Source: a virus
Length of the DNA stretch: 35,174 bases
Virus record (IMG/VR): IMGVR_UViG_3300017776_005857
Coordinates: 1-35,174 of that record
Reading direction: 5' to 3' (one strand)
Within the stretch, counting starts at the first letter, position 1. Each line of letters starts with the position of its first letter. The notes beneath the pieces are model-generated. The model saw only the letters and a list, made by a program, of their open reading frames with translations. It made no database searches and was not told the DNA's origin. The translations under genes and the position numbers were made by a program. Positions 249 through 18,835 of this stretch are shown here, in pieces.

Positions 249-300
249 TGCTATGTAGTACCGAAAGACGAAGAACAAAATCTCAAGTTCTTGATAAAGA

Positions 301-308
301 TATTTATA
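301..308 (-). promoter_or_regulatory. T4-type late promoter motif, minus strand
   Basis: The plus strand reads TATTTATA at 301-308, so the minus strand carries the exact T4 late -10 element TATAAATA. A start about 6 nt downstream would give a leader of ~130 nt to the secreted-protein gene at 164. It lies inside the leader of the plus-strand gene at 339. A chance match in AT-rich DNA is possible. Confidence 0.45.
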
Positions 309-338
309 CATGACGGGTTATTGACGCACGGAGAAAAG

Positions 339-656
339 ATGCTTAATTATACTAGTTCACTGAGATATTCGTCAACAGGCAAGAAGCGAAAGACCAAATC
401 TCTCAAGAAGGCAAGAAAGCCAAAGATTTCTACTCAGCCTTTACGCCCTTCTTACAACGATTATATATATTCTAGACTGGATGAATCTAAACAATATCCA
501 AGTGTTGATATAGGTTCTCCCTCGGTATGCAGTGCCCCTGAGAAGAAAGTTTATTCTGGGACTTTGGTGAAAGGCATTTCGACTATGCACAAGTCTAATG
601 CTGTTCCTATTATCAGCGAAGAAGAAGCCAAAGAACATGCGAGTATGAGGCGATGA
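339..656 (+). CDS. Conserved-looking small basic phage protein, function unknown
   Basis: 105-residue protein. I chose ATG 339 because GGAG lies 6 nt upstream; the frame is open from TTG 291 but that start has no ribosome site. The N-terminal third is very basic (a run containing KKRKTKSLKKARKPK at residues ~15-29), followed by a Pro/Tyr/Ser-rich middle and an acidic end (SEEEAKEH). No transmembrane segment or catalytic motif is visible. The basic patch suggests nucleic-acid binding, but that is only inference. The stop overlaps the next ATG (ATGA at 653-656), so the two are probably translationally coupled. Similar short proteins occur in marine T4-like phages as far as I recall. Confidence 0.75.
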   Translation: MLNYTSSLRYSSTGKKRKTKSLKKARKPKISTQPLRPSYNDYIYSRLDESKQYPSVDIGSPSVCSAPEKKVYSGTLVKGISTMHKSNAVPIISEEEAKEHASMRR

Positions 657-811
657 CTAAGAAAAGAAAAAATCCGGTTGCAAAGTTTGCCAGACGTTTC
701 AACAAAGCGGTTACTATGGAAGATCGGCTGAAGAGAAAGAAGAAAGGCTACCGCAAGCACAAAGGTAAAGAATATGAAGAGAGTGGCGATTGTCGGGATT
801 GGAATAATTGA
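653..811 (+). CDS. Very small basic protein (52 aa), probably core T4-like gene
   Basis: 52 codons from ATG 653, coupled to the preceding gene by an ATGA overlap. The N-terminal part, MTKKRKNPVAKFARRFNKA, and the later KKKGYRKHKGKE resemble small T4-like phage proteins of unknown role that carry an NPVAK...KHK pattern (recognised from memory, not searched). The last ~13 residues (EYEESGDCRDWNN) are read out of frame from the first codons of the ketosynthase gene, with a 38-nt overlap. This suggests the original stop was lost when the island joined here. No function can be assigned. Confidence 0.65.
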   Translation: MTKKRKNPVAKFARRFNKAVTMEDRLKRKKKGYRKHKGKEYEESGDCRDWNN

Positions 812-1934
812 TGCGTTAGGAGACAATCAACAAGATTGCTATCGCGGGATGTCCTCTTCTGAGTACGTCCCGCCTCCTTATTTCGATGCTATTTCTGAGT
901 TAGGTAAACAACAAAAGTTTTTCTCTGCAAAAGATGATAACCTTCGCAAGCCCGAGTCTATGCGAAGACCCCCTGTTGAGAAATACGCACGTTATGCAAT
1001 TCACTCTGTTGTTGATGCAATTGAGCACCTGAACATCGATACCGAAAGTGTTTCTGTTGTTACAAGCAACGGCACCGCAGGCGATCAGTTGAAGTTTAAA
1101 GTAATCGACGGCTGTTACAACGACAAAAAAGTAAAGCCGACTGATTTACTACAGTGCATCTATGATTATCTGTCAGGCGCGATTGCACAGTCTTATGGTT
1201 GGCGAGATGCAAATGTCAACGTCAATGCGGCGTGTGCTGGTAGCAGTTATGCAATCGATTACGCGATGCGACTGACTGATGAATCTGATTATGTGATTTG
1301 CACTGGTGCTGACTGCGGCACTGATATCAGTATTCCTGCATTTGCGAAACTGACTGCGCTCGGTGATCGTTCTAGTCCATTTGATGATTCACGCAATGGC
1401 TTTGTTATGGGCAGTGGCGCAGGAACGCTTGTCTTGCAAGCAGAAGATAAGTTGACGCATGAGCCTATTGCTTGGTTACACCCTGCTTCATTTCAGACTG
1501 ATATTTCAAGCCCTACTGCACCTGACACTGACGGACGAGGCGCAAAAGCATCGATGTTTCATGCACTCAAAAAGGCAGGCATTTGGACAGACCAGCTTGC
1601 GTTTATTTGTTCACACAGCACTTCAACGCCAATTGGTGACAAAGTAGAATATGACGCTATCTCTTGGTTGATAGAGAGTAAAAGAGTGCCTGTCTCCGCG
1701 TACAAAGCAAAAATTGGACACTTGCTGTCTGCTTCAACAATTGTTGAAATCATTTACGGGATCATGGCGTTACAACACAATACTGTGATTGGCAATGTCA
1801 ATTCACCCGACTGTACACTGGATGAAAAAGGTGTTATAATACAAGAGAATGAAGAAACCGATAAAAGGTATTTTCTGAAGAATAGTTTTGGCTTTGGTGG
1901 TAAGTGCGCGTCACACGTGATTGAAGTATGCTAG
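774..1934 (+). CDS. Beta-ketoacyl-ACP synthase (KAS II / FabF-like)
   Basis: 386-residue thiolase-fold condensing enzyme of the KAS I/II type. These enzymes load an acyl group on a cysteine and extend it by decarboxylative condensation with malonyl-ACP. All family landmarks are present: the nucleophile in NAACAGSSYA (Cys154), the PFD..RNGFVMGSGAG block (~202-217), the first His in SHSTST (His281), Lys311 and the second His in KIGHLLSAS (His316), and the C-terminal NSFGFGG loop (370-376). The Cys-His-His triad is intact, so it should be active. The length is slightly short for FabF (~410). AAAGG lies 8 nt before the ATG. No acyl carrier protein, acyltransferase or ketoreductase is visible nearby, so it would need host ACP or serve a different acyl acceptor. 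First gene of the island. Confidence 0.93.
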   Translation: MKRVAIVGIGIIDALGDNQQDCYRGMSSSEYVPPPYFDAISELGKQQKFFSAKDDNLRKPESMRRPPVEKYARYAIHSVVDAIEHLNIDTESVSVVTSNGTAGDQLKFKVIDGCYNDKKVKPTDLLQCIYDYLSGAIAQSYGWRDANVNVNAACAGSSYAIDYAMRLTDESDYVICTGADCGTDISIPAFAKLTALGDRSSPFDDSRNGFVMGSGAGTLVLQAEDKLTHEPIAWLHPASFQTDISSPTAPDTDGRGAKASMFHALKKAGIWTDQLAFICSHSTSTPIGDKVEYDAISWLIESKRVPVSAYKAKIGHLLSASTIVEIIYGIMALQHNTVIGNVNSPDCTLDEKGVIIQENEETDKRYFLKNSFGFGGKCASHVIEVC

Positions 1935-2527
1935 AAAAAGTTGATAGTAGTTATCCTATCGAAACAATGTTGAAGTTTTGTGAGCAGAGTATCGGTGACA
2001 TGCACCCTGCCGCAGAAAATATGGATCCTGTAGATTGGGAGAATAAGTCTCATACTCTGCTCTATAAAATCTACACTGAAAAGATGTATGACAATCCGAA
2101 AGCAGGGTATTACATCTTACAACAAAAAGGAGTACCTAAGTTTGGCTTAGGCTTTGTACCATCTGCTGTAGATGAAAATATTGCACTAGGGTCCACTCGT
2201 TTCTATGTGGTTCCGAATGTTAAGAACACGATGCTCTGGCGGGCGACCAAAGCTACGTTTATCCTCAGCAACATAATGGAAGAGGTAGGCTACAAAGGAT
2301 ATTTTTATACATTCAACGAGTATAACTATACGAACGGTTTTATGGATCTGGTTCGTGACGGAGCTGACCGAGCGATTAAAGATGGCGTTCGTAGACATAT
2401 GAAAAAATTACCGTATTCTATTATGTATAACTATACGGAACAATATGTGATATATCATCTATACAATGATGATTATGAACAAACATTTTTAAACAAAGTG
2501 GAACAAATAAAAGTAAAAAACATATGA
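1928..2527 (+). CDS. Unknown protein, possibly GNAT-like acyltransferase
   Basis: 199 residues; the start overlaps the ketosynthase stop by 7 nt. The central part (FYVVPNVKNTMLWRATKATF followed by a helix ending EEVGYKGYFYTFNEYN, ~95-135) has the feel of the strand-helix core of GNAT N-acyltransferases, but the acetyl-CoA pyrophosphate loop (Q/RxxGxG/A) is not recognisable. I therefore treat the assignment as a guess. The C-terminus is rich in Tyr and Asn. No signal or membrane segment. An acyltransferase beside a ketosynthase would make sense, transferring an acyl group onto a sugar or amine, but the sequence does not prove it. Confidence 0.4.
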   Translation: MLEKVDSSYPIETMLKFCEQSIGDMHPAAENMDPVDWENKSHTLLYKIYTEKMYDNPKAGYYILQQKGVPKFGLGFVPSAVDENIALGSTRFYVVPNVKNTMLWRATKATFILSNIMEEVGYKGYFYTFNEYNYTNGFMDLVRDGADRAIKDGVRRHMKKLPYSIMYNYTEQYVIYHLYNDDYEQTFLNKVEQIKVKNI

Positions 2528-3237
2528 CCATGGAGCAAATCAAAGCAGAATATTTTAAGAGACCTGACTTTGAGTTTGAGTATTCAAACTTGAATGATAT
2601 TGCTTTGGTTCCTGACATGTCTTCATTTACAGAAGAAGACTTACAGCGATATGAAGAAGAGTACAGTCTAAAGTTGTGGGCGTTTGATATGAACACTACG
2701 ACACTAGAGACTCGCTCGCGGGTACCTAATTATCGTCCTTTTAGTAGACATCGACGCGCATTAGAAAAACTCGGTTATGTACCTAAAGAGTTACTAGACA
2801 TCGCAGAGAGGCGAATCAAAGAGTGCGTAAACTCATTTGTTCTTTGGCATGGCTGTGGCACCTCTCTTCCTGATCGACACAAAATGTTTGAGCATTTTCA
2901 TCCCCCGAATATGATTACAGGCAAACCTATTCGCACATTGAGTTTTGTTGTTCCTGTTAAACATGTTCAACCGCCAACAGAATGGATTAACTTTTCATAT
3001 CAAGACACTTTGAAGAATTACGAACACCCGCCAATGCCAGTCGATGCTAAAAGATTTGGAGATCATTGGCTAAGTCTTTGTTTGAGTTACAAAGATTTAG
3101 AGCCCGATACACTTATAAGATATCCAGCAGAAGATCACATGTTGATGTTTGAGTTTGACTCAACGCACAACGTACACTGGACAGAGGGTATCGATTTAAA
3201 TCACAATTTAGTTTTTATATTCGATGACATTAGGTGA
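2524..3237 (+). CDS. Unknown island protein, possible cupin/2OG-type fold
   Basis: 237 residues, coupled to the previous gene by an ATGA overlap. A second ATG lies two codons inside. The N-terminal ~100 residues are charged and helical-looking. The C-terminal half looks beta-rich with clustered histidines (FEHFHPPN ~122-129, KHVQPP ~146-151, STHNVHWTEG ~213-222) and ends HNLVFIFDDIR. This layout recalls double-stranded beta-helix oxygenases or cupins, in which two His and an acid bind iron, but no clean HxD...H motif can be defined. I do not recognise the family. Its place between the GNAT-like and methyltransferase-like genes suggests a step in the same pathway. Confidence 0.45.
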   Translation: MTMEQIKAEYFKRPDFEFEYSNLNDIALVPDMSSFTEEDLQRYEEEYSLKLWAFDMNTTTLETRSRVPNYRPFSRHRRALEKLGYVPKELLDIAERRIKECVNSFVLWHGCGTSLPDRHKMFEHFHPPNMITGKPIRTLSFVVPVKHVQPPTEWINFSYQDTLKNYEHPPMPVDAKRFGDHWLSLCLSYKDLEPDTLIRYPAEDHMLMFEFDSTHNVHWTEGIDLNHNLVFIFDDIR

Positions 3238-3240
3238 TGT

Positions 3241-3918
3241 ATGATTAAAACAGATTTTATGATATCAAACCGACTGTACGCACAGTGGTTCAAGCACTTG
3301 AGAGAAAACCCAGAAGAATTGTATGGTTTTTCTGAGTGCTTTTGGGAATCACAGCTTGAAAGCAAGTCTTGGTTGCTTGGCGAAGTTGATCCATCATCAG
3401 GAGAACACAATTGGTGGTATGATAACGTCTATGTGTTTGGTGGTTGGTACGGTGTGTTTACACAAATTTTGCTTGAGCATATCAATTGCGGAATAGCATA
3501 TAACATTGATATAGATCACAAGTGCGCGATTGTTGGGCGCAGTATAAACGTGCATGGAGATAAATTTGTTCCTGTAACTTGTCCGATGGAAGATTATTAT
3601 GAGTCTATGCCAATGACAGGTAAATTTCATTACGACACTGCTAAGAATCTTATTATCAATACTAGCACCGAACATGTGTCGCAAGAAGTTTATGAGAAAT
3701 GGGCGGCAGATATTCCCGATAAATCAAAGGTCATATTGCAAGGAAATAATTTGAGCAGTATCGGCTCTCATATTAGAACGTTTGATACACTGGAAGAATG
3801 GTGTGAAATGAATGGTGTAGATGATTCATTTGGTTTCATTCAAGAGCGCCAGGTGGATAATGTAAAGCGTTATATGGCTATCAGAGAGCCTCTTGTAGAA
3901 ATTATTGAAGAAGAGTGA
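3241..3918 (+). CDS. Class I SAM-dependent methyltransferase-like protein
   Basis: 225 residues. A Rossmann-type motif I is suggested by VYVFGGWYGVFTQILLE (residues 63-79), followed by an acidic strand end NIDIDH (88-93) in the position that binds the SAM ribose, then a VPVTCPMEDYY segment and a strand LIINTSTEH (~137-145) equivalent to motif IV. The order and spacing fit a class I methyltransferase, although the glycine motif is atypical (FGGWYG). The substrate is unknown. It starts 3 nt after the previous stop, and an AGGTGAT ribosome site overlaps that stop. A second ATG at codon 7 is possible. Confidence 0.6.
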   Translation: MIKTDFMISNRLYAQWFKHLRENPEELYGFSECFWESQLESKSWLLGEVDPSSGEHNWWYDNVYVFGGWYGVFTQILLEHINCGIAYNIDIDHKCAIVGRSINVHGDKFVPVTCPMEDYYESMPMTGKFHYDTAKNLIINTSTEHVSQEVYEKWAADIPDKSKVILQGNNLSSIGSHIRTFDTLEEWCEMNGVDDSFGFIQERQVDNVKRYMAIREPLVEIIEEE

Positions 3919-3922
3919 TATT

Positions 3923-5452
3923 ATGATAGGAAAGAATAAAAGTAAAAGAGATAAACTTGCTGACAAGTTACAAACTCTTGGGTATCAAAATGGTAAAGCT
4001 AAAAGCGACACCAAAGAAACATATAAAGATACCATGCAACGTGTAGAAGATAATCTAGAAACCATGGGAGGACCAGGCTTTTGCTTGGCTAAGTGGTTAC
4101 AGGTTACTATACACTTAGCAAACGGTACTAATCATAGTTGTCACCATCCTCGCGTTCATGATATCGACCCAGAAGAAATAAAAACGAATCCGAGTGCCCT
4201 GCACAACACCGCTTATAAAAAACAATTACGCAAAGAGATGCTAGAAGGTGAGCGCCCAGTTGAATGTGATTACTGTTGGCGTGTTGAAGATGCTAATAAA
4301 GATGCTACTGTTGAAGAGAAAAATTTCAGCGACAGGATTGTAAAGAGTGCTTCACCTTGGGCTATGAGTAGAATTGAAGAAGTTAAGAAAGCGGGATGGA
4401 AAGAAGACATAACTCCTTCATACGTAGAAGTAGATTTTGAAAACACGTGTAATTTTAAATGTGCTTACTGTTCTCCTTCTTATTCTTCACAGTGGCAAAA
4501 AGAAATACGCGACCACGGTCCTTATGTTCTCCCTTACATTAGGTTTAATGATCCAGCACATATTGATGAACATAGTAAGTTGCCAATCAAGCCAGAAGGG
4601 AATCCTTATATTGAAGCGTTCTGGAAATGGTTCCCCGAGGCATCTAAAGAGATGACTGATTTTCGTGTTACTGGAGGAGAACCTTTTCTATCAAAAAATA
4701 CTTTTAAAGTACTCGACTATCTAGAAGAGAATCCTAACAAAGAACTTAATTTTGCAATCAATAGTAACTTTGGTGTCGATGCAGATGTAATTGATAATTT
4801 CATTGAACGTATCAACAAGTTACAACATGATCGTTGTATCAGATCGTGTACAGTATATACTAGTAATGAAGCACACGGTAAACAAGCAGAATATATTCGA
4901 TATGGTATGGAATATGAGTTGTGGGAAAGAAACCTGAGAGAAATGGTAGAACAGACCCGAGCGAAAGTTGTTATCATGTCAACCATAAACAATTTGAGTT
5001 TTTCTTCTTATCAGACTTTTTTAGAAGTTGTGTTGGACATTAAATTAAAAAATACCACACGTGCCCGCCAATTGCCGCTTGCTCTTGATTTTCCTTATCT
5101 ACGGCACCCAGAGTTTCTTTCTGGATGGGTCGCTACACCAGACATGCTTGTGCCTATGAAAAATGCATTGAAGTGGGCACAGGAAAAACATGAAACAGGA
5201 AACGGGATGGGATTCTATGTGTTTGAGACCGAGCGCATGAATAGAGCGATAAAACTCTTTGATTCAAAGATAGCAGAAGCAGACACAGATGAAGGTAAAA
5301 GTAAAAGAGACACTTTGCGAGCATCTTTTTATCAGTTTGTGAATGAGTATGATCGCCGTAGAAAAACAAATTTCTTGCAAACGTTTCCCGAATACTCTGA
5401 GTTTTATGATCTATGCAAACAGTCTAGCAATAATTTTATAGCAGTCGGTTGA
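3923..5452 (+). CDS. Radical SAM protein with N-terminal twitch-like cysteine region
   Basis: 509 residues from ATG 3923; the frame is open further upstream to TTG 3905 but ATG 3923 is the better start. The core motif is CNFKCAYC (Cx3Cx2C), which binds the 4Fe-4S cluster that cleaves SAM to a 5'-deoxyadenosyl radical. It is followed by the GGEPF motif (FRVTGGEPFLS), which contacts the SAM amino group. Upstream of the core is a cysteine-containing region (NHSCHHPR ... VECDYCWRVED) like the auxiliary-cluster twitch region in phage and marine twitch-type radical SAM proteins. The reaction cannot be told from sequence; relatives act on sugars, peptides or cofactors. It sits mid-operon between the methyltransferase-like protein and the SGNH hydrolase. 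Confidence 0.9.
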   Translation: MIGKNKSKRDKLADKLQTLGYQNGKAKSDTKETYKDTMQRVEDNLETMGGPGFCLAKWLQVTIHLANGTNHSCHHPRVHDIDPEEIKTNPSALHNTAYKKQLRKEMLEGERPVECDYCWRVEDANKDATVEEKNFSDRIVKSASPWAMSRIEEVKKAGWKEDITPSYVEVDFENTCNFKCAYCSPSYSSQWQKEIRDHGPYVLPYIRFNDPAHIDEHSKLPIKPEGNPYIEAFWKWFPEASKEMTDFRVTGGEPFLSKNTFKVLDYLEENPNKELNFAINSNFGVDADVIDNFIERINKLQHDRCIRSCTVYTSNEAHGKQAEYIRYGMEYELWERNLREMVEQTRAKVVIMSTINNLSFSSYQTFLEVVLDIKLKNTTRARQLPLALDFPYLRHPEFLSGWVATPDMLVPMKNALKWAQEKHETGNGMGFYVFETERMNRAIKLFDSKIAEADTDEGKSKRDTLRASFYQFVNEYDRRRKTNFLQTFPEYSEFYDLCKQSSNNFIAVG

Positions 5453-5453
5453 T

Positions 5454-6197
5454 ATGCGTAGAAGAAGACTAGCACAATTTGGGTGTTCTTGGAGTGATTA
5501 CACTGAGAGTGATGTTGAATCAATACACGCAACATATGGCGAATTATTAGCTAAAAATTATGATGCAGAGTACATACATGAAGCTAGGGGCTGTGGAAGT
5601 AATGCGAGATATTTTAGAATATTACCTCGTATGATTCATGATGGTATTTTGAGTAAAGAAGACCTCATCATAATTCAAATAATCGCTTGGGAAAGAACAG
5701 AAGTTTGGTCTGGTAGAGAGTATCCTATTATTAACTTTAGGTCAGAATATAACATGACAGACCCGTGGTTTACTAATAACAAAAGAAACGGTACTATTCT
5801 GCGTATGAAGTCCCAAGCGTGGGAATGGTTAACATACCCTGAAGAAAAAGAATATGCAAAACAATGGTTACTTTTTCAAGACCCGAGCTTTGAGGTCGCG
5901 GTATGGAATAGCCACATGCTTTCGTTGCAAGGGTTTCTAGACTCAAAGGGTTTTAAAAATGTTTTTTGGGTTTATCCTTTTTCAGGACCAAGTGTTCCAG
6001 AACACAAAAGAAAAAAAGTGACTGAGTGTCCGCGAGATATGATTATGCCTCGGAAATTTATCCCTGTGCGTGGTTGGGTAACTGATGAACTGACACTGAA
6101 GAGACCTGAGGGAGAGCCTCACGATTATTGTCATTTAAGTCAAACAGGACATGATTATGTTGCACAAAAAATAATAGATGAAATAGGTTCTATATGA
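5454..6197 (+). CDS. SGNH/GDSL-type hydrolase
   Basis: 247 residues beginning one base after the radical SAM stop. Block I is FGCSWSDY with the likely nucleophile Ser12. The oxyanion block is ARGCGSNARYF (Asn50). The catalytic Asp-His pair is in HDYCHLSQTGH near the C-terminus (Asp224, His227). This order and spacing are those of SGNH esterases, which typically add or remove O-acyl groups on glycans. No signal peptide, so it should act in the cytoplasm. A second SGNH domain is present in the fusion protein at 8752-10785, so the island has two. ATGA overlap with the next gene. Confidence 0.82.
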   Translation: MRRRRLAQFGCSWSDYTESDVESIHATYGELLAKNYDAEYIHEARGCGSNARYFRILPRMIHDGILSKEDLIIIQIIAWERTEVWSGREYPIINFRSEYNMTDPWFTNNKRNGTILRMKSQAWEWLTYPEEKEYAKQWLLFQDPSFEVAVWNSHMLSLQGFLDSKGFKNVFWVYPFSGPSVPEHKRKKVTECPRDMIMPRKFIPVRGWVTDELTLKRPEGEPHDYCHLSQTGHDYVAQKIIDEIGSI

Positions 6198-7342
6198 ATA
6201 TTTGTTTTGTGGGATTAGGAAAATTGGGAATGCCTTGTGCTGAGGCTATCGCACAAAAAGGTGTACCTGTTGCAGGGTTTGATATCGAACCAAGAACGTC
6301 TAGTTATGTAGTCATTCATGACTCACTAGAAGGTGCTTTGCTTGATGCAAATATTGTATTTGTTGCGGTCCCTACACCGCATGATCCTCATTATGATGGT
6401 CGCGCACCGAGCGCCCACTTAGAGCCAAAAGACTTTGATTACACTACTGCAAAGTCTGTGATTAAACAGTGTGATGATCTAATGAACAAAGATCAGTTGT
6501 TGGTTCTAATTAGTACGGTTCTTCCTGGTACTGTCAGACGAGACATTGTTCCGCTTATCAATAACACAAGATTTGTTTACAATCCTTATCTTATTGCAAT
6601 GGGTACTGTCTCTTGGGACATGGTGAATCCTGAGATGCTAATGATCGGCACAGAAGACGGTGAAGAAACTGGTGACGCAAAAGAATTGATTGAATTCTAC
6701 GCGCCATTGATGGAGAACAATCCACGTATTGTTGTAGGTACATGGGATGAATGTGAATGTATCAAAGTATTCTACAATACATTTATCAGTGCAAAGATTG
6801 GTCTTGTTAATATGATTCAAGACGTTGCAGAGAAACAAGGCAATATCAATGTTGATGTTGTAACTGCGGCATTACGTGACAGTACACAGAGAATCATGGG
6901 ACCTGCATACATGCGAGCGGGTATGGGTGATGGCGGCGCATGTCACCCAAGAGACAACATTGCTTTGCGATACATGGCAGAAGAGTTGGGACTAGGCTAT
7001 GATTTGTTTGAGGCTATCATGGAAGCAAGGGAAATGCAAGCGGCCAATATGGCAGAAGCAGTTTTACAGTACGGCAATCGTATACTATTTACTTCTGATT
7101 CTTACAAAGCAGGTGTAGACATTAAAGCTGGTAGCTATAGCTTACTTGTACAGCAGTTTGTGAAAGAGATGGGCGGTGAGGTTGTAGATGATAACCCAGA
7201 CGTAATTTTTAAAGTGCATGAATCAGATGATATTGAATTAGATTTTGCGTTTGCTCTCACTGATATCAGCACTGTAATTTTTGATCCATGGCGATCACAT
7301 GTTTCTAAAAATCCGGTAAGACACTATGGCAACACACGATAA
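6194..7342 (+). CDS. UDP-glucose/GDP-mannose 6-dehydrogenase family enzyme
   Basis: 382 residues. The N-terminal NAD-binding motif is VGLGKLGMP (residues 6-14). The family signature for sugar-6-alcohol oxidation is present: STVLPGT (~107-113), KVFYNTFISAKIGLVN with the active-site Lys191 and Asn195, and the catalytic cysteine in GGACHPRDN (Cys240). These enzymes oxidise a UDP- or GDP-hexose twice to the uronic acid. The C-terminal sugar-binding domain is somewhat short but ends normally. It overlaps the hydrolase by 4 nt and the carbamoyltransferase by 17 nt. With the epimerase at 15968 it could supply a uronic acid precursor. The exact sugar is not readable from sequence. Confidence 0.88.
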   Translation: MNICFVGLGKLGMPCAEAIAQKGVPVAGFDIEPRTSSYVVIHDSLEGALLDANIVFVAVPTPHDPHYDGRAPSAHLEPKDFDYTTAKSVIKQCDDLMNKDQLLVLISTVLPGTVRRDIVPLINNTRFVYNPYLIAMGTVSWDMVNPEMLMIGTEDGEETGDAKELIEFYAPLMENNPRIVVGTWDECECIKVFYNTFISAKIGLVNMIQDVAEKQGNINVDVVTAALRDSTQRIMGPAYMRAGMGDGGACHPRDNIALRYMAEELGLGYDLFEAIMEAREMQAANMAEAVLQYGNRILFTSDSYKAGVDIKAGSYSLLVQQFVKEMGGEVVDDNPDVIFKVHESDDIELDFAFALTDISTVIFDPWRSHVSKNPVRHYGNTR

Positions 7343-8783
7343 AATTCATTGGGGTGTTTCTGCTGGGTTTCATGATGCGTCTATAAGCGTAGTGCAAGGC
7401 GATCAAATTCTTTTTGCTGGACACAGCGAGCGTTACAGCAGAATAAAAAATGATAAGAACATTAATTTTAATTTAGTACAGGATGCTATGAAGTATGGTC
7501 GTCCTGATATCGTGCATTGGTATGAAAATCCATATAAGAAAGCACTGCGGCGTCTAATCGCTCGGCAAGATAATATTTGGACATCACCTAGAAGTTATCT
7601 GAAAGGACTGTCTAACGTACCAATTAAAATAGGAGATCATCATGAAAGTCATGCGTCTGCTGGGTTCTACACTAGTGGCTTTGATGAAGCCGCTGTATTG
7701 GTTGTTGATGCTATTGGCGAGTTTACCACTATTAGTATTAGTCATTATTTATCGCAAGGAGATAGAAGAAGTCGCCGCCCGCTGTATCGAACAACATACC
7801 CACGGTCACTAGGATTATTTTATTCTGCTATTACTGATCGTGTTGGTCTTAAAGCAAACGAAGACGAATATATTTTGATGGGCATGGCGGCTTACGGTGA
7901 CCCTCTAAGATTTTACGATGACGTAAAGAAACTGTATAACTCAACAGAAAACTTTCATAGAGGCTGTAAGTGGTTTCTTCCTGACTTAGAAGAAAAAGAT
8001 TATTTTGATTTAGCCGCATCTGCACAAAAGTTTTTTGAAGCACAGTTAGAAAAGTTATTGTCAGAAGCAGTTTATCTAACTAAGTCTAGAAATTTAGTTT
8101 ACATGGGAGGTTGCGCTTTGAATTGTGTTGCAAATGGCATAATCTCAAAGTATTTTGATAATCATTGGATCATGCCTAATCCAGGAGACGCTGGCTCATC
8201 TCTCGGCGCTATCACGGCTCATACTAGACAAATGTTAGATTGGAAGGGACCGTATCTAGGTTATGATATTGCAAGATCATACCCCACAGAAGACATTGTA
8301 CGTAAATTACAAGATGTCAGTATTGTAGGTGTTGCAAATGGTCGTGCTGAGTTTGGTCCTCGCGCTTTGGGTAATCGAAGTTTATTTGGCAACGCACTAG
8401 ACCCTGACATTAAAGATAAGATGAATAAAATTAAGAGACGGCAAGAGTTTCGTCCCTTTGCTCCTGTCATAATGAAAGAACATGCCGCAGATTATTTTGA
8501 TGTAGAAAAAGATTTTGAATCTGCGTACATGCAACATGTAGTTCGTTGTACACAACCAGAAAAGTTTCCGGGTATCGTACATAAAGATGGTACAAGCAGA
8601 GTGCAAACTGTGACAAGAGATCAACACAGAGGTCTTTACGACACACTAGCACTGCTTTACAAAGACACTGGCTGTCCTATGATGTTGAATACTAGTTTGA
8701 ATATTAAAGGACAGCCTATGGTAAATGACATACGTGACGCCACAGAATTTTCTACATATTACGGAATATCTGTTCTTGTATAA
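7326..8783 (+). CDS. NodU/TobZ/CmcH-family O-carbamoyltransferase
   Basis: 485 residues. The N-terminal Kae1-like domain shows GVSAGFHDASIS (10-21), HHESHASAGF (105-114) and VVDAIGE (126-132), followed by GMAAYGDP and MGGCALNCVANG. The C-terminal YrdC-like domain carries GRAEFGPRALGNRS (339-352), the DGTSRVQTV segment (~421-429) and NTSLNIKGQPMV (455-466). This family uses carbamoyl phosphate and ATP to carbamoylate hydroxyls of sugars, aminoglycosides (TobZ) or Nod factors (NodU). It is shorter than the usual ~550 but has both domains. It is the last gene of the plus half; its end overlaps the minus-strand fusion gene by 32 nt. Members also occur in phages with modified DNA, so the acceptor could be a sugar or a base. 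Confidence 0.93.
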   Translation: MATHDKIHWGVSAGFHDASISVVQGDQILFAGHSERYSRIKNDKNINFNLVQDAMKYGRPDIVHWYENPYKKALRRLIARQDNIWTSPRSYLKGLSNVPIKIGDHHESHASAGFYTSGFDEAAVLVVDAIGEFTTISISHYLSQGDRRSRRPLYRTTYPRSLGLFYSAITDRVGLKANEDEYILMGMAAYGDPLRFYDDVKKLYNSTENFHRGCKWFLPDLEEKDYFDLAASAQKFFEAQLEKLLSEAVYLTKSRNLVYMGGCALNCVANGIISKYFDNHWIMPNPGDAGSSLGAITAHTRQMLDWKGPYLGYDIARSYPTEDIVRKLQDVSIVGVANGRAEFGPRALGNRSLFGNALDPDIKDKMNKIKRRQEFRPFAPVIMKEHAADYFDVEKDFESAYMQHVVRCTQPEKFPGIVHKDGTSRVQTVTRDQHRGLYDTLALLYKDTGCPMMLNTSLNIKGQPMVNDIRDATEFSTYYGISVLV

Positions 8784-10785
8784 CGTTTGCTAGTTCTTTG
8801 TGCCCAGCCTCGTTGGGATGTCCACAATCTAAAAAATATTTAGATGAGCGCAATAGTTCTCTTTCCGCAACCGCATACTCCCAGTCTTTTCCAAACATTT
8901 CATCATAATGTTCTTTCATTGGATTCTCATCATTAGCCATGTCGTATTCAAACATGGGTAATTTATATCTGAATGGTGTTCTATTAATTTTTGCTAAAAT
9001 ATCAATAAACGAGCCGTAAAAGTTATCAATTTCTACATTGTTTGGTTTTTCACCAAAAACAGAAAAATGAAAAACTTTTGTTTGAGAAAAGGCGGCTAAC
9101 TCATTTATCTGAATCATTTGCTCTTCCCATAAATCAAACATATGTTCTGTACTATTATTATTAAAAAAGTGCAATTGGTCTGCGTCTGCTTGTTTTTTCT
9201 GTGCGAAAGATGCAGGATACGTATGTAATCCAATATCTCCGTAATTTTTCATTCTTCTGGCAATACTAGACCAAGCTACAACAATAAATCTAGGTTGCTC
9301 ACCTGACTTTAAGTACTCGACTACTTTTCGGTGTATTGATGCATTGTCAGAACCAGACTTTGCAAGATTTTTAGGTATCATTGTTGTATGAAGAAAATCA
9401 GCCCAGGGTTGTTTGACCCCATATCCCTCAGTCCAACTATCTCCAAATATAGCAACGTGATTTTTACCGTCTCCTTGTCGCAATGCCCTTGCTTTTAATA
9501 GTTCTGTTAATTGCGTTCTTTGCTTTGATATAGATTCTATTTCATTCTCTGATATCTCTGGGTGTTCAAATACAACGTTTCCAATGTTAGCTAAATGATA
9601 ATAATTGTGCGAAAGTATGGAATGCATTTCTTGCAACAAAGAAGTACACTCTTTCATAGGAAGCTCTAGAATTTGATCTACAATCTTCATGACAGCCTCA
9701 AATCTTTTACCTTGATCTTCTATTTCATCATAGCTTTCATCCCAAAATTTATCAAATGTTTTGAAGCCAAACTCCTTTAACATTCGTAAAGTTCCTGCAG
9801 GCGCTAAAAGTATAAACGGTCTTTTTGTAAGCAGTGCTTTTTTTGTTTTTTCTGACCAAAAACAAGTGTCTTTGTGCCATAAAGTTTCTGTTACTAGGCT
9901 CAAAAAGGAGTCTGCGTGTTTTTGTGTTGTTTTATCTTGCTGTTCTGTGCCTATACTAATATATTCTTTTTGATCCCAAGTTAAATCTTTTGCATAAAAT
10001 TTATCTCTTTTTTGTGTTAGATATCTTTTGTAAACATTACTAAATTTATGCCACAAAAAATCTTGCTTATCTCGGCACCATTCTCTGTCGTACTCTCCTC
10101 TTTTTATAGCGTCCCAGCCCCACTTAGAGTAGTTAGTCAAGAAGACATCATTTCTGTTGACTAAATGTGTACATGCAATTTGACGGTGTATTTCAGGTCT
10201 TTTATTTACGCACATCACTTTGTATTTAATGTCTTCATATGGAATTTCGTTGAAAAATGTGTTGAGTTCGTCTGATTCTCCCCTTTTCATTGCATGAAGT
10301 TCTTCAATTTGTAATTGCGACCAGGATTGTGTGAATTGATCGTGATATTTTACTTTACTGAGATCAACGTCTGATCCAATATAGTATCTCTGACCACCGT
10401 ACTCTGGATCTAGTATTAAGTAATCTTCAACGTCAACTTTTTCTAGTATTTCCTGAAAAATAGTAGATTCGTTTGAAATCCATTCATCGCCTCCTTGTTT
10501 CAATCCAATCAAGCGAGTGTGACAATCATCGTTTATCATTATAATTTTTTTTATTTTGATCTTGTTTATTTCATTTATCAGGATATCAATTCCTGTTCTC
10601 CACTTGTATCCTTGGTTCAAAAGATATAAAACTTCTGAATTGTCCTGCCAAAAAGGCAAATACTTAGTTTCATAACAGTCTACTACTTTATCATCTGACA
10701 AAAAATCTCCGCCCCAGAATTGTCTTCTCTCGCTTCCTCGTAACCACCAGATGCCGTTGTATGCGTAATTGTTGTTGTCTACCAT
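8752..10785 (-). CDS. Fusion protein: glycosyltransferase-like domain + SGNH hydrolase
   Basis: 677 residues. The first ~400 end with the block SEKTKKALLTKRPFILLAPA (311-330), followed by GTLRMLKEFGFKTFDKFWDESYD. This is the nucleotide-sugar-binding pattern of a phage/marine glycosyltransferase family related to fucosyltransferase-like GT-B enzymes. The C-terminal ~230 residues are a complete SGNH domain: IFGDSWTEGYG with Ser450, GSDNAS with Asn481, VVAWSS, and the Asp-His pair in LDCGHPNEAGH (Asp653, His656). The likely role is transfer of a sugar followed by addition or removal of an acyl group. Start codon ATG overlaps the amidinotransferase stop by 7 nt. It is the last gene of the minus half. 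Confidence 0.82.
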   Translation of the reverse strand: MVDNNNYAYNGIWWLRGSERRQFWGGDFLSDDKVVDCYETKYLPFWQDNSEVLYLLNQGYKWRTGIDILINEINKIKIKKIIMINDDCHTRLIGLKQGGDEWISNESTIFQEILEKVDVEDYLILDPEYGGQRYYIGSDVDLSKVKYHDQFTQSWSQLQIEELHAMKRGESDELNTFFNEIPYEDIKYKVMCVNKRPEIHRQIACTHLVNRNDVFLTNYSKWGWDAIKRGEYDREWCRDKQDFLWHKFSNVYKRYLTQKRDKFYAKDLTWDQKEYISIGTEQQDKTTQKHADSFLSLVTETLWHKDTCFWSEKTKKALLTKRPFILLAPAGTLRMLKEFGFKTFDKFWDESYDEIEDQGKRFEAVMKIVDQILELPMKECTSLLQEMHSILSHNYYHLANIGNVVFEHPEISENEIESISKQRTQLTELLKARALRQGDGKNHVAIFGDSWTEGYGVKQPWADFLHTTMIPKNLAKSGSDNASIHRKVVEYLKSGEQPRFIVVAWSSIARRMKNYGDIGLHTYPASFAQKKQADADQLHFFNNNSTEHMFDLWEEQMIQINELAAFSQTKVFHFSVFGEKPNNVEIDNFYGSFIDILAKINRTPFRYKLPMFEYDMANDENPMKEHYDEMFGKDWEYAVAERELLRSSKYFLDCGHPNEAGHKELANVIQEQIFRNM

Positions 10786-11732
10786 CTTTGTAAATCCAAT
10801 GTTACGCAGTGATGACCACCGCCAAGTGTACGTGAATGTGTCATTTCTACACCGTATGTAGAGATATGATTTTTTTCAATTTTGTCTCTTATAAGTCTTT
10901 GATTGGTATCACAAATAACATTGCTTTCGTTAATTGATAATACGTTCATTGCAATGTAATCGCTTGCATACGGATATTGATAGAAATCTTTGCTTTCGAT
11001 ATCTTCTTTTGTTATCCAAATTTTGTCCCAGCTTTTTAGTACGTCTGGGCAAGTGTCGTTGTTGAGTCGATCTCCATTCAACATGACTAGACCTTCTCTA
11101 AGCGGTACAATTGTGCTATCTATATGTACCCCTTGATATACATTCTCAATGATATGTACTTTGTAATCATCGCCTAAAATTCTTTGTAGCCACCGAGCGC
11201 CTTCTATATTACCGCTGTCACTGACAAGATAAAGCAAGTCTTTCCCTAATCGGCAAATATTTGCGGCATCAAAAAATGCAGTTTCGTCATCACACGTGAT
11301 AACCTCGCCTAAGTAATCTTGCAAGGCTAAAATTTCTGGCATACGGCATGGAAACATCATAGGACAATTAATAACTTTGTCACCTATGATTAGAATACGA
11401 TCTCGGGGACAGTAATTATACATGCCGTCAAAGGAAGAAAAATCTAAGTTTTTTGGTCTTACAACCTGTACTTCAAAGTCTCTAAGAACAGAACACATTA
11501 CCGCTAAGTTTGTGTTTGCTTCATGAATGATTTCATTAGGTACGGCTCCACGCGGAACAGGCGACTCTTGCCACCGCGTAGTTTCTTCTAAGGAGCGAAA
11601 ACCTTTACAACGTACAGGCCAGTGTGCATTTGTTGCTGTGCCTACGACGATTTTATGTAGCGGCTCCCATTCATTATTGCTGTATACTGATCTCACGTAA
11701 ATCCGGATATTCTTTAGATTGACACATACCAT
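10779..11732 (-). CDS. Amidinotransferase (glycine amidinotransferase / StrB1 family)
   Basis: Up to 317 residues. The protein follows mammalian GATM closely in its catalytic parts: EANTNLAVM, RDRILIIGD, FDAANICRLGKDL (Asp155), VHIDSTIVPL (His203, Asp205), AMNVLSI, and LGGGHHCVTLD with the nucleophile Cys309. These enzymes move the amidino group of arginine to an amine, giving a guanidino compound; bacterial relatives act in streptomycin synthesis. The triad Asp-His-Cys is intact and its spacing matches the family. The start is uncertain: ATG 11732 gives a 59-nt overlap with the upstream gene, while GTG 11696 would begin the protein just before SVYSNNEWEPL, where homologous sequence begins. 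The acceptor amine is unknown; an aminosugar made by the neighbouring aminotransferase is an attractive guess. Confidence 0.9.
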   Translation of the reverse strand: MVCVNLKNIRIYVRSVYSNNEWEPLHKIVVGTATNAHWPVRCKGFRSLEETTRWQESPVPRGAVPNEIIHEANTNLAVMCSVLRDFEVQVVRPKNLDFSSFDGMYNYCPRDRILIIGDKVINCPMMFPCRMPEILALQDYLGEVITCDDETAFFDAANICRLGKDLLYLVSDSGNIEGARWLQRILGDDYKVHIIENVYQGVHIDSTIVPLREGLVMLNGDRLNNDTCPDVLKSWDKIWITKEDIESKDFYQYPYASDYIAMNVLSINESNVICDTNQRLIRDKIEKNHISTYGVEMTHSRTLGGGHHCVTLDLQRW

Positions 11733-12249
11733 TAAAGTTTTTTAACAATTCAAGACCCTTTTCAGCCTCTTCAATTGTGGGTTTGTAATGGTACCCAACT
11801 TCAAATACTTTTTGTTTTTGCCACGGGGAAATAGTTAAGTCTCGTCCATCATATGACATTCTTTTTAATTTGTTATAATCATATTTATCGTTACAAAGAA
11901 TTGCGCCGCCTCTCCCTATTGAAAGGGGTTTATCAAATCCAAAACTTAGACATTGCAAATCCCCATTATACATGTCTCGTTCTAATCTTCTCGCGCTATC
12001 CCAGATTCTAGTTAGTCCAAAACGATACTCACCTAACCACTGTTCATCGTTGTAACTATAATCTATATTCAGCTTGTGCATGAGCATAGGAATACTGAGA
12101 TAGGTGTAGGGTGTGAAAGTTGTTTTTGTTGTCTTGTCTAGTCGGAAGCAAAGTTCTAATGCATGTGTACAGCAGTCTGTTGCTACTGCATACTTAGCAC
12201 CTGCAAATCCAGCAAGTTGCTCTTCAAACTCAAATATTTTGTCAAACAT
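11674..12249 (-). CDS. Short DegT/DnrJ/EryC1/StrS-type PLP aminotransferase
   Basis: 191 residues, about half the family's usual 370-400. Visible landmarks: GAKYAVATDCCTHALELCFR (18-37), the phosphate-binding start of the large domain; TFTPYTYLSIPM; WDSARRLE with Asp84 (PLP nitrogen contact); and LSFGFDKPLSIGRGGAI with the Schiff-base Lys107. Family members put an amino group on a keto-sugar. The C-terminal small domain is reduced to ~60 residues. As the reading frame is clean this looks like a compact form rather than a broken gene, but loss of activity is possible. It overlaps the oxygenase gene by 8 nt and the amidinotransferase by up to 59 nt. Confidence 0.82.
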   Translation of the reverse strand: MFDKIFEFEEQLAGFAGAKYAVATDCCTHALELCFRLDKTTKTTFTPYTYLSIPMLMHKLNIDYSYNDEQWLGEYRFGLTRIWDSARRLERDMYNGDLQCLSFGFDKPLSIGRGGAILCNDKYDYNKLKRMSYDGRDLTISPWQKQKVFEVGYHYKPTIEEAEKGLELLKNFNGMCQSKEYPDLREISIQQ

Positions 12250-12721
12250 GACCAGTAATTTGTAATGTGTATCTTGGCTCTACACCGATATTGCTTGCGG
12301 CATGGGGAACCGTGTAGTCCCACTCTGCGTAATCACCAGCGTCCCAATCAGTGTAACCTATTGAATTCATTTCAAAATAATGACCAGGTTTCCAATCTTC
12401 CAAGAAAACTAATATTCTACGAGCATCTTTTTTGTCTATATTGAAAACTTTACAGTATGTTTCAAAATGATCGGTATGCTCGGGCATAATATTTAGAGTG
12501 TCCATTCTATAAAAAGCAAAACTCATATTGTTCAAGTTAAAGGGGAGTGTATTGACCCAAGTTGGCATTGGGTTTTTGCTATCATATAGTTTCCCTACAA
12601 ATGAGTCGTGTGTATAGCCAGCATCTCGCCATTTTTTTATATCTGTTGCGAGCGCAGGCTTTGTTTCATAGGGAAAATTTTTGTATGTTTCCCCCCAAAT
12701 TTTTTTAATGTTTTTTAGCAT
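12242..12721 (-). CDS. 2OG-Fe(II) oxygenase-like protein
   Basis: 159 residues, first gene of the minus half. The C-terminal part fits a small 2-oxoglutarate/Fe(II) dioxygenase: first iron motif PEHTDHF (His82-x-Asp84), strands RRILVFLEDWKPGHYFEM, then the distal His in VPHAASNIG (His140) and EPRYTLQITG with Arg150, the expected 2OG-binding residue ten positions on. Such enzymes hydroxylate or desaturate proteins, sugars or small molecules; the substrate here is unknown. There is no clear ribosome site, and the start lies 32 bp from the divergent gene at 12754. No convincing minus-strand promoter was found in this gap. Confidence 0.68.
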   Translation of the reverse strand: MLKNIKKIWGETYKNFPYETKPALATDIKKWRDAGYTHDSFVGKLYDSKNPMPTWVNTLPFNLNNMSFAFYRMDTLNIMPEHTDHFETYCKVFNIDKKDARRILVFLEDWKPGHYFEMNSIGYTDWDAGDYAEWDYTVPHAASNIGVEPRYTLQITGHV

Positions 12722-12881: not shown

Positions 12882-13169
12882 ATGGGTGTAGTAGTACAAT
12901 TTAAAGAAAAGAAAGTCAAACTCGGTTACAGAGTTTCATTTTATACAGAAGATGAGATTAATATCACTCTTGCCTGTCTCAATCTTTGCGGCAGTTCTCC
13001 TTATCGATACAATCGTGCAGTCATGAAGCAATTAGACCCCTTAGAAATCCAAGATTGTCTGATCCGCGCAAAAAATCTTAAAATTTTAGGTTCCAAAACA
13101 CTTGAAATCATAAATAATGTATTATATAATATTGAAGAGTTCCCCTTAGAACAAGCAGTGAGAAGTTAA
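12882..13169 (+). CDS. Hypothetical protein (95 aa)
   Basis: 95 residues starting 5 nt after the preceding stop. The beginning is VVVQFKEKKVKLGYRVSF, the middle contains NLCGSSPYRYNRAVMKQLDP, and the end is helical. No membrane segment or known motif. The stop shares one base with the next start (TAATG), so the two are probably co-translated. I do not recognise the family; the position in a run of small core genes suggests an ordinary phage gene rather than island cargo. Confidence 0.65.
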   Translation: MGVVVQFKEKKVKLGYRVSFYTEDEINITLACLNLCGSSPYRYNRAVMKQLDPLEIQDCLIRAKNLKILGSKTLEIINNVLYNIEEFPLEQAVRS

Positions 13170-13474
13170 TGCCTATATACACATATGAAAACACCGAGAC
13201 TGGTGAAGTTTTTGACATTCTAATGAAACTGTCTGAGAAAGATGAGTTTCAGCAAAACAACCCTCATTTAAAAAGTAAGATCACAGGCGCCCCTGGTATT
13301 GTGGGTGGCACTGGTGATCGCACTCGTCCAAGTAACGGCTTCAAAGAAGTCCTCTCTAAAATTGCAGAAGCAAATCCATCATCTGCCCTTGCAAGTGACT
13401 TTGGCAAAAAAGATTCTATGTCTGTTAAAAAGAGAGACGCGATTCAACGTTATAACGCAAACAAAGGAGACTGA
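13169..13474 (+). CDS. FmdB-like small protein without its zinc-ribbon cysteines
   Basis: 101 residues beginning MPIYTYENTETGEVFDILM, which matches the opening strand pattern of FmdB-type zinc-ribbon regulators (MPxYxYxCxxCGxxFE). The cysteines are replaced (Glu, Thr), so no zinc site is left. The rest (NPHLKSKITGAPGIVGG, then NGFKEVLSKIAEANPSS) matches the layout of small proteins that T4-like marine phages encode near PhoH, as I recall. Role unknown; a transcription or DNA-binding accessory function is possible. Confidence 0.65.
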   Translation: MPIYTYENTETGEVFDILMKLSEKDEFQQNNPHLKSKITGAPGIVGGTGDRTRPSNGFKEVLSKIAEANPSSALASDFGKKDSMSVKKRDAIQRYNANKGD

Positions 13475-13520
13475 CTTATATCATTGAGTAGACCCTACTA
13501 ATCACAATACAGGTTCAAAA

Positions 13521-14264
13521 ATGACTAGAAAAAGAGCTTTACAGGTAGTAAGTAACTCTGAGCCAGAAGTTGACAAGAAACTCAAAATAAAAATCGATGA
13601 CTTGGCTACATTCGATGCAATAACTGAAACCCAAGGACAATTTTTCTCACAATACAAAACAAAAGGAGCATTTCTCTTACACGGTTCAGCTGGAACCGGT
13701 AAAACATTCATCGCGCTGTACAAGGCGTTAGAAGAAGTACTAGACCGAGGAACACAATATCAAAAAGTAATTGTTGTTCGTTCAGCCGTCCCCTCCCGCG
13801 AAATCGGTCACCTCCCTGGTGATGAAAAAGATAAGACAGAAGTTTATTCTATTCCTTATCAAACGATGTGTGAAGAACTTTTACCTCGCAAACAACAACC
13901 ATATCAACGTCTTACCGAACAAAAACACCTTTACTTTATGTGTACCTCATTTGTTCGAGGTATTACGTTAGATGATTCTATTATCATTGTAGACGAATGC
14001 CAAAACATGAACGATATGGAACTGAATTCAATTATGACACGTGTAGGAGAGAACACAAAAATTATTTTCTGTGGAGATTTCCGACAGACTGATTTGTATC
14101 GAAGAAACGATATGTCAGGACTGAAAAAGTTTATGATGATTGCAGAAAATATGCCTTCTTTCTCGTTGCATGAATTTACAACAGAAGACATTGTACGTTC
14201 TGGATTGTGCCGTGAATATGTTGAAGCTAGGATGCGATACGAAGACGAATTTGGTGTTGCATAA
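13521..14264 (+). CDS. phoH: PhoH-like P-loop ATPase
   Basis: 247 residues. Walker A is GSAGTGKT (55-62) and Walker B is IIIVDECQN (154-162); GDFRQTDL follows as the sensor-like motif (a GD.xQ pattern typical of PhoH). This is a helicase-superfamily ATPase common in marine phages; the physiological role is unsettled, with RNA-related functions and phosphate stress both proposed. A modest AGG precedes the ATG. It sits between the small core genes and the nuclease. Confidence 0.93.
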   Translation: MTRKRALQVVSNSEPEVDKKLKIKIDDLATFDAITETQGQFFSQYKTKGAFLLHGSAGTGKTFIALYKALEEVLDRGTQYQKVIVVRSAVPSREIGHLPGDEKDKTEVYSIPYQTMCEELLPRKQQPYQRLTEQKHLYFMCTSFVRGITLDDSIIIVDECQNMNDMELNSIMTRVGENTKIIFCGDFRQTDLYRRNDMSGLKKFMMIAENMPSFSLHEFTTEDIVRSGLCREYVEARMRYEDEFGVA

Positions 14265-14290: not shown

Positions 14291-14953
14291 ATGTTTAATC
14301 ATAAACAAATTGAGTTTGAAGAAGCTGTAGCTAGGAGTACCCCGTCAGGTAGAATGTACGAAACGCCTGACGGGGCTTCCTATCCTTCTGTTACCACGAT
14401 CATGTCTTACAAAAGCAAAGACAGTATTCTTGCTTGGAGAAAACGTGTGGGTGAAGAAGAAGCAAATAAAATAAGCAACAAAGCCGCAACACGCGGAACA
14501 AAAATACATGATCTATGTGAAAAACATTTGTTGAATGAAGAATACTCTTTAGACAATCTAGGTCTTGTAGATCAATTTAACTTTAAAAACTTTATTCCTG
14601 TTCTAGAGAGAATAAATAACATCTATGCATTAGAGAAAGCATTGTATAGTCATCATTTGCGATTGGCTGGCAGGGTTGATTGTATTGCAGAATTTGATGG
14701 GCGCAGAAGTGTCATAGATTTTAAAACTTCATCTAAGCCTAAGAAAAAAGAATGGATTGATAGCTATTTCATGCAAGCAACTGCCTATGCAATTATGTAT
14801 GAAGAGGTTACAAAAATACCAGTACCCAACATTGCTATTCTAGTTTGCGTAGATAATGAAGAGCCACAAATCTTTACTGAAAAACGAGACAATTACGCCC
14901 AACAATTATTAGAACTGCGATTGGAATATGAACAGTATAAACGTAGCCTATAG
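14291..14953 (+). CDS. PD-(D/E)XK nuclease (exonuclease-like)
   Basis: 220 residues with the RecB/Cas4-type nuclease core: a helix with GTKIHDLCE (His73), AGRVDCIAEF (Asp130), VIDFKTS (Asp143 and Lys145, the metal-binding D...DxK set), then SYFMQATAYA with Gln162 and Tyr166. The N-terminal block GRMYETPDGASYPSVTTIM is typical of small phage exonucleases of this family. It probably processes DNA ends during recombination or replication. There is no ribosome site before ATG 14291, which is odd; the next in-frame ATG (14354) would cut into the conserved block. Confidence 0.82.
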   Translation: MFNHKQIEFEEAVARSTPSGRMYETPDGASYPSVTTIMSYKSKDSILAWRKRVGEEEANKISNKAATRGTKIHDLCEKHLLNEEYSLDNLGLVDQFNFKNFIPVLERINNIYALEKALYSHHLRLAGRVDCIAEFDGRRSVIDFKTSSKPKKKEWIDSYFMQATAYAIMYEEVTKIPVPNIAILVCVDNEEPQIFTEKRDNYAQQLLELRLEYEQYKRSL

Positions 14954-15737: not shown

Positions 15738-15762
15738 CATATTCTGTCAAGTATTATATAAT
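15734..15762 (+). promoter_or_regulatory. Perfect sigma-70 promoter (TTGACA-17-TATAAT)
   Basis: TTGACA 15734-15739 (overlapping the stop of the glycosyltransferase gene) and TATAAT 15757-15762, 17 bp apart. The start would be near 15769, ~23 nt before the ATG at 15792. It should drive the small gene 15792, the epimerase and genes 33 and 59. Confidence 0.88.
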
Positions 15763-18793: not shown

Positions 18794-18835
18794 TCGTTAT
18801 ATATAGTTTAGTGTGAATACACTATGGAGACTATT

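Follow-up and report, generated by a model that had tools for sequence, protein, structure and literature searches.

We analyzed an IMG/VR virus record of 35,174 bases (IMGVR_UViG_3300017776_005857; in the following, the window), which is itself a genome fragment, with respect to a gene island at positions 774–12721. Judged from its gene content and from related loci, this region is rather likely to be an exchangeable locus for the tailoring of surface polysaccharides, carried by a T4-like marine phage and equipped with a guanidinylation cassette. Its products would guanidinylate and carbamoylate an amino sugar within a surface polysaccharide, which probably belongs to the host. Clusters of the lipopolysaccharide (LPS) type in marine phages are of a known kind; new are the guanidinylation cassette and the miniature aminotransferase encoded in it.

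The island is made up of two convergent, tightly packed blocks on the plus strand (774–8783) and the minus strand (12721–8752). By its position, it is the variable slot beside phoH where related phages keep LPS-type clusters. By comparison with these phages it is also a composite; the 12-kb metabolic island of an initial annotation is not a single conserved pathway. Its components are a carbamoyltransferase common at this site, a nucleoside diphosphate (NDP)-sugar dehydrogenase, a variable left end, and the conserved minus-strand cassette.

Enzymes of the minus-strand cassette

Positions 11674–12249 of the minus strand encode a miniature DegT/StrS-type aminotransferase of 191 residues with an intact pyridoxal phosphate (PLP) site, termed mini-DegT here. 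The StrS-type aminotransferase named in the initial annotation was thereby retained with regard to family and PLP site, but at half the normal size it is not a full-length enzyme of the StsC/BtrS type. In 83 of 84 copies the length is 191–206 residues, compared with about 360–390 residues for normal DegT/StrS proteins; the lone exception (170 residues) is found in locus L154, whose adjoining genes are fragmented. Thr28, Asp84, Ser102, and Lys107 are invariant in 32 sequences and match residues of the family's PLP site, for which an analogous role can be assumed. The best-matching stretch in Pfam covers profile positions 163–245 of 360. The protein is too short for a two-domain subunit of about 360 residues or more, and compared with the GDP-perosamine synthase type, its C-terminal domain is absent and its large domain partly missing. 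An AlphaFold model was obtained with a predicted local distance difference test (pLDDT) value of 94.9 and a predicted template modeling (pTM) score of 0.91. The nearest solved fold is GDP-perosamine synthase (E-value 5.8e-10; TM-score 0.74 normalized to the query and 0.40 to the target), and other near folds are 3-amino-5-hydroxybenzoic acid (AHBA) synthase and WbpE. The best profile matches in the PDB likewise are perosamine synthases, sugar aminotransferases, and AHBA synthase. Thus, mini-DegT shares PLP-site residues and core fold with the DegT/DnrJ/EryC1/StrS family including GDP-perosamine synthase, and its bacterial copies adjoin a GDP-mannose 4,6-dehydratase (Gmd) gene, but it differs in length (191–206 versus about 370 residues).

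The StrB1-like amidinotransferase (10779–11732, minus strand) gave no Pfam match on its own and was assigned via its family profile, which scored 343.7 bits with StrB1 (1bwd), 214 bits with HsvA, and about 208 bits with human GATM. With the catalytic triad Asp155/His203/Cys309 invariant in 18 sequences, the StrB1/GATM-type assignment made before was confirmed. Because the first residues are not common to the relatives, the true start may be located a dozen codons downstream. The third gene (12242–12721, minus strand) encodes a small 2-oxoglutarate (2OG)-Fe(II)-type oxygenase similar to aspartyl/asparaginyl hydroxylases, recognized by its motif and by Asp_Arg_Hydrox, which matched 8 of 16 family members. 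As its HxD...H...R motif is invariant in 16 relatives, this assignment could also be kept. For the three cassette genes, the median ratios of nonsynonymous to synonymous substitution rates (dN/dS) are 0.10, 0.07, and 0.08, calculated from hundreds of pairs that are not independent, and by this measure the three-gene set is under purifying selection. The conserved length marks mini-DegT as a genuinely miniature enzyme; the idea of a decayed gene was rejected in view of this length, the invariant residues, and purifying selection.

The minus-strand block is completed by a two-domain protein (8752–10785) with a GT-B-like N-terminal half (approximately residues 1–430) and an SGNH/GDSL C-terminal half. 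Relatives carry these halves as separate genes, and many GT-B-like paralogues accompany the cassette.

Linkage and exchange among phages and marine bacteria

For each search, the best 80 loci were examined with flanks of up to 10 kb; many of these are close relatives of each other. All island genes were compared by tblastn with 80 loci containing a gene related to the TobZ/NodU-type carbamoyltransferase (CarbT; 7326–8783, plus strand). There, CarbT, the small conserved gene starting at 12882, and phoH form a constant right edge, while the left side is variable, with relatives of the radical S-adenosylmethionine (SAM) gene in 63, an SGNH2-like gene in 29, the NDP-sugar dehydrogenase gene (UGD) in 20, and the methyltransferase-like gene in 19 loci. 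CarbT and the phoH operon are separated by no more than 70 bp in 60 of the 80 relatives but by 4.1 kb in the window, where the minus-strand cassette lies between them. At the same site, but in opposite orientation, locus L098 holds oxygenase, mini-DegT, amidinotransferase, an open reading frame of 221 residues matching the SGNH half, and a GT-B-like gene. In L066, mini-DegT, amidinotransferase, oxygenase, and a GT-B-like gene are inserted between an SGNH gene and UGD, i.e. on the other side of the dehydrogenase compared with the window. From these two arrangements it can be concluded that the cassette genes change place, orientation, and order jointly. The trio of oxygenase, mini-DegT, and amidinotransferase is present in only 1 of the 80 CarbT loci, and 79 are without amine and guanidine genes.

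Profile searches of viral contigs yielded 139 relatives of mini-DegT. Among the best 80 loci, the complete trio is present in 51, mini-DegT with the oxygenase in 7, and mini-DegT alone in 22; after removal of near-duplicates, the trio remained in 19 of 38 loci. It occurs in at least three gene orders, mostly within about 2–3 kb. With an alignment profile of the amidinotransferase at least 583 relatives were found, so the empty result of a single-sequence scan of viral contigs was attributed to a limit of that method. The best 80 were taken, of which 58 were left after redundancy removal; 52 of these contain the oxygenase and 47 of the 52 also a GT-B-like gene. UGD is present in 64 of the 80 amidinotransferase loci (median distance 502 bp in the 62 measured), and relatives of UGD stand within 3 kb of amidinotransferase genes. 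In most of the sampled amidinotransferase phages oxygenase and amidinotransferase are located side by side, usually together with UGD, and in L204 and L212 the three genes are consecutive. The initial annotation had regarded scattered homologs in related phages as speaking against a common pathway. Oxygenase, amidinotransferase, and either mini-DegT or the dehydrogenase recur linked in many phages; the 12 kb as a whole, however, are not linked, as CarbT usually stands beside the phoH operon without amine and guanidine genes and the ketosynthase gene at the left end and its two neighbors (774–3237) had no relative at an E-value of 1e-8 in about 260 fetched loci.

The trio also occurs in a cultured phage, Synechococcus phage S-SCSM2R (PQ898602), with identities of 42% for mini-DegT, 29% for the 2OG oxygenase, and 36% for the amidinotransferase. 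There, it stands among glycosyltransferases and a radical SAM gene; unlike in the window, it is interleaved with the glycosyltransferases and no TobZ-type gene is annotated in that stretch. Further arrangements were observed. One phage group (L091, L107, L084) has mini-DegT but no amidinotransferase; by eye, mini-DegT follows a GalE-like epimerase gene (L091, L107) or a glycosyltransferase-like gene (L084), and a gene similar to GTP cyclohydrolase I comes after it in all three. Two amidinotransferase genes each are present in L110, L131, L162, and L163, and L110 and L131 also have two mini-DegT genes; the copies are close together. A marine single-cell virus (L083; MH319727) combines on 7.9 kb an amidinotransferase of 439 residues with two SGNH-like genes, a carbamoyltransferase, and a radical SAM-like gene, i.e. 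the same theme with a different, larger amidinotransferase.

In GTDB genomes, 17 mini-DegT loci were found in marine metagenome-assembled genomes (MAGs) and single cells. In L170 and L174, mini-DegT is preceded by a methyltransferase-like gene and followed by a Gmd homolog (339–349 bits) and an epimerase-like gene, the latter detected by Pfam in L174 and by tblastn in L170. In L164, from a member of the Pelagibacteraceae (SAR11), UGD, oxygenase, and mini-DegT are consecutive. Its surroundings encode a GT9-like protein, an FkbM methyltransferase, a hexapeptide transferase, and an ATP-binding cassette (ABC) transporter pair; the match of the membrane subunit of this pair to ABC-2 is weak. This locus is probably chromosomal, because its contig bears the title NODE_4 and rpsD of this genome is located on contig C4. 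The same genome contains on another contig a separate amidinotransferase relative of 380 residues (L261; 184 bits). A 335-kb contig of a Marinimicrobia MAG (L165) was dropped as bacterial evidence, as the assembly holds two gp23 capsid genes on large contigs. The L165 contig has phage-like content, and L165/L180 (MAG PBPT01) probably represent a mis-binned T4-like phage.

Remaining genes and promoters of the window

Gene content identifies the window as part of the genome of a T4-like marine myovirus infecting bacteria. T4-like markers are PhoH, gp59, gp32, and T4-type baseplate genes, and both baseplate and tail genes are present. The nearest isolates by gp32 are pelagimyophage HTVC008M, P-SSM2, and methylophilales phages (about 56–57% identity). 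On the left, the island is bounded in 17 relatives by a small conserved phage protein (phrog_27048; 291–656, plus strand). The right anchor (12882–14264, plus strand) comprises the small conserved gene (12882–13169), a regulator (13169–13474), and PhoH (13521–14264).

The plus-strand block starts with a FabF-like ketosynthase (774–1934; Pfam PF00109/PF02801) with the catalytic residues Cys in 'ACAG', His in 'SHST', and Lys/His in 'KIGH'. A single-sequence scan of viral contigs with the ketosynthase gave nothing, and no alignment-based rescan was made for it; ketosynthase matches in 'phages' showed 24–34% identity and were mostly unannotated, bacterial-looking records. The two following orphan proteins match no family and by eye alone resemble GNAT (1928–2527) and cupin/2OG proteins (2524–3237); the single PDB match of the latter, a designed repeat protein, was taken as spurious. 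Next to these three genes, no gene for an acyl carrier protein was noticed. A methyltransferase-like protein proposed at 3241–3918 found no support in Pfam, PHROG, or the PDB and remains weakly supported, although relatives exist in other phages. It is followed by a twitch-domain radical SAM protein (3905–5452; NF033640, 300 bits versus a cut-off of 170) with the CxxxCxxC motif as CNFKCAYC and by an SGNH-like protein (5454–6197; weak match to DUF6071). For the two SGNH domains reported before, the GDS/GCS and DxxH motifs are present, but the profile scores are weak (PF00657 8e-5, just under the cut-off; DUF6071 0.0013). UGD (6194–7342) is an NDP-sugar 6-dehydrogenase of the UDP-glucose type according to Pfam and phrog_9148, with the Cys residue in GGACHPRD. 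CarbT, fixed beside the phoH operon in relatives, is assigned to the TobZ-type carbamoyltransferases by Pfam (PF02543 and PF16861) and by PDB matches to TobZ-, GdmN-, and NovN-type structures. Profiles and key residues thus corroborated the earlier assignments of ketosynthase, radical SAM protein, UDP-sugar dehydrogenase, and TobZ/NodU carbamoyltransferase. The catalytic residues said to be intact were indeed seen in ketosynthase, radical SAM protein, dehydrogenase, amidinotransferase, mini-DegT, and oxygenase.

The glycosyltransferase claimed for the island corresponds at best to a GT-B-like domain, suggested by weak fold comparison; no classical glycosyltransferase was recognized within the island. 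A glycosyltransferase-like protein recognized by eye (14928–15737, plus strand; no Pfam or PHROG match; relatives in 5 of 80 CarbT loci) is encoded outside the island. Annotated glycosyltransferases are found in the L082 cluster. A nucleotide-sugar epimerase/dehydratase (15968–16840, plus strand) is encoded downstream of its own consensus promoter and represents, together with UGD, the NDP-sugar biosynthesis genes of the window. Just past gp32, an alanine/glycine-rich protein with a lipoprotein-like signal (SMTACAG) and no PHROG match is encoded at 18824–19747.

The exact sigma-70-type consensus TTGACA-17-TATAAT was found in four copies (220–248, 15734–15762, 17760–17788, 20241–20269), all on the plus strand, versus 0.01 copies expected from shuffles. 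The copy at 220–248 precedes the plus-strand operon as its putative promoter, another one is located ahead of gp32, and that at 15734 ahead of the epimerase gene. This suggests early transcription by the host polymerase and hence a host-directed effect. T4 late-type ATAAATA motifs are not enriched in the window.

Proposed function and rival explanations

For the cassette and the surrounding genes, the following pathway can be proposed from the enzyme families. The NDP-sugar dehydrogenase and epimerases would provide activated sugars, and mini-DegT, by its fold and bacterial context, would aminate a keto-sugar, perhaps a perosamine-like 4-keto-6-deoxy NDP-hexose. The StrB1-like enzyme would transfer an amidino group from arginine to an amine, resulting in a guanidino sugar, and the 2OG-type oxygenase may at an unspecified point hydroxylate the same sugar unit or oxidize it to a ketone. 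The glycan would be assembled by GT-B-like proteins, acylated or deacylated by SGNH enzymes, and carbamoylated by the carbamoyltransferase. Most likely, the target would be the O-antigen or capsule of the host, remodeled during infection against rival phages or against re-binding of the receptor. A surface glycan, one of the products considered initially, is supported by the NDP-sugar enzymes and GT-B-like proteins, and is favored mainly because of the bacterial relatives beside Gmd and in the SAR11 cluster, where an ABC-2-type exporter and a GT9-like protein are encoded.

LPS clusters near phoH have been described for P-SSM2 (PMC3037559), host-recognition islands with LPS genes for pelagimyophages (PMC7029224), and clusters for O-antigen and carbamoyltransferases for jumbo cyanophages (PMC7824862). 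In the sections of these publications that deal with such clusters, they resemble the island in phoH-side location, hypervariable content, NDP-sugar enzymes, glycosyltransferase-like proteins, carbamoyltransferases, and radical SAM cassettes, but amine and guanidine chemistry with a mini-aminotransferase, a StrB1-like enzyme, and a paired 2OG-type oxygenase is not mentioned there. A search of the open literature for a guanidino O-antigen pathway gave nothing relevant; it may be described elsewhere.

Several points weigh against a tailoring locus for a host glycan. The window is a genome fragment, and product and acceptor are predictions from its genes. Many amidinotransferase loci hold no mini-DegT; loci that combine UGD, oxygenase, and amidinotransferase in the absence of mini-DegT imply that the acceptor amine can have another source, which is a gap in the model. 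Replacement by a full-length DegT was considered and rejected after a check of three loci: UGD occupies the position in two of them, and the third contains neither gene. The evidence for a GT-B domain is weak (no Foldseek match below 1e-3, TM-score about 0.3), a lipid or acyl role may suit the ketosynthase at least as well, and the argument for early expression is a consensus match only.

Among the alternatives, decoration of the virion, i.e. a glycan on tail fiber, capsid, or a phage glycoprotein instead of the host envelope, would need the same genes, and the baseplate and tail genes in the window as well as the many GT-B-like paralogues are in line with it. Nevertheless, we consider it unlikely, since the plus operon starts with a host-type consensus promoter as found before gp32, ATAAATA is not enriched, the SAR11 counterpart is a host surface-type cluster, and the relevant sections of the literature on such loci favor the host O-chain (PMC7029224, PMC7824862). 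A diffusible secondary metabolite, aminoglycoside-like or amino-acid-derived and directed against competitors, would be in line with the presence of a ketosynthase. The StrS, StrB1, and TobZ families occur together in aminoglycoside clusters. Streptomycin-type chemistry (StsC/StrB1) plus TobZ is paralleled in the enzyme families and in a plausible order of amine, guanidine, and carbamate, and the amidinotransferase profile is nearest to StrB1 among solved structures. Such a product is also raised for related cyanophage clusters in the part of PMC7824862 that covers them. The aminoglycoside-like pathway of the initial annotation thus held for the chemistry but not for the membership: no cyclitol-forming enzyme, phosphotransferase, or full-length aminotransferase of the StsC type was identified among the scanned proteins of the window, itself a fragment, and the genes have UGD, epimerase, and GT-B-like neighbors. 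As, in addition, ketosynthase and neighbors are not conserved with the rest and the bacterial relatives stand in surface-sugar clusters, a free small molecule is very improbable.

The same low probability is given to DNA hypermodification, in which the carbamoyltransferase would act on 5-hydroxymethylcytosine (5hmC) and the other enzymes would build larger base modifications. A part in base modification is plausible for radical SAM, 2OG, and amidinotransferase-type enzymes. Moreover, carbamoylation of 5hmC has been proven for a phage enzyme of the TobZ family (PMC8670742). That enzyme, however, co-occurs with thymidylate-synthase homologs, and carbamoyltransferases in unmodified contigs are flanked by glycosyltransferases (PMC8670742). 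DNA hypermodification, also among the products considered initially, is disfavored because no thymidylate-synthase-type hydroxymethylase (PF00303) was detected in 17 related records, seven of them 116–165 kb in size, while a control search was positive in 9 of 14 genomes. Instead of such a partner, relatives have NDP-sugar neighbors, and the bacterial relatives of the cassette stand in sugar clusters. Finally, for cyanophage LPS clusters a role as functionless stuffer DNA in headful packaging has been raised, which could also apply here. In line with this, the locus is highly variable, and Sullivan et al. 2010, in the portion on these clusters, leave their functionality open (PMC3037559). Considering dN/dS medians of 0.07–0.10, invariant catalytic residues, and the conserved length of mini-DegT, this explanation is hardly credible.

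For one glycan cluster of marine phages, tailoring of a surface polysaccharide by an exchangeable locus provides a concrete chemical hypothesis, namely an amino sugar bearing both guanidine and carbamate. The strong purifying selection on the cassette bears on the question whether such clusters do anything at all. A guanidino sugar would place a positive charge on a normally anionic surface and could effectively alter receptor recognition. Independently of this, it is noteworthy that phages and marine bacteria share a conserved DegT-type aminotransferase of half the usual size. More tentatively, and with somewhat less than even confidence, we propose a widespread phage guanidino-sugar pathway for a surface glycan bearing guanidine, and here also carbamate, with a PLP aminotransferase of about 190 residues that would function in the absence of the canonical C-terminal domain. 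Viral amidinotransferases have been annotated as K00613 (PMC8226683), and GATM has been discussed together with GAMT (PMC11360552). Our results give grounds to question whether viral amidinotransferases are correctly annotated as the glycine amidinotransferase of creatine synthesis; if the proposal is true, those filed as creatine-pathway genes would belong to a guanidino-sugar pathway.

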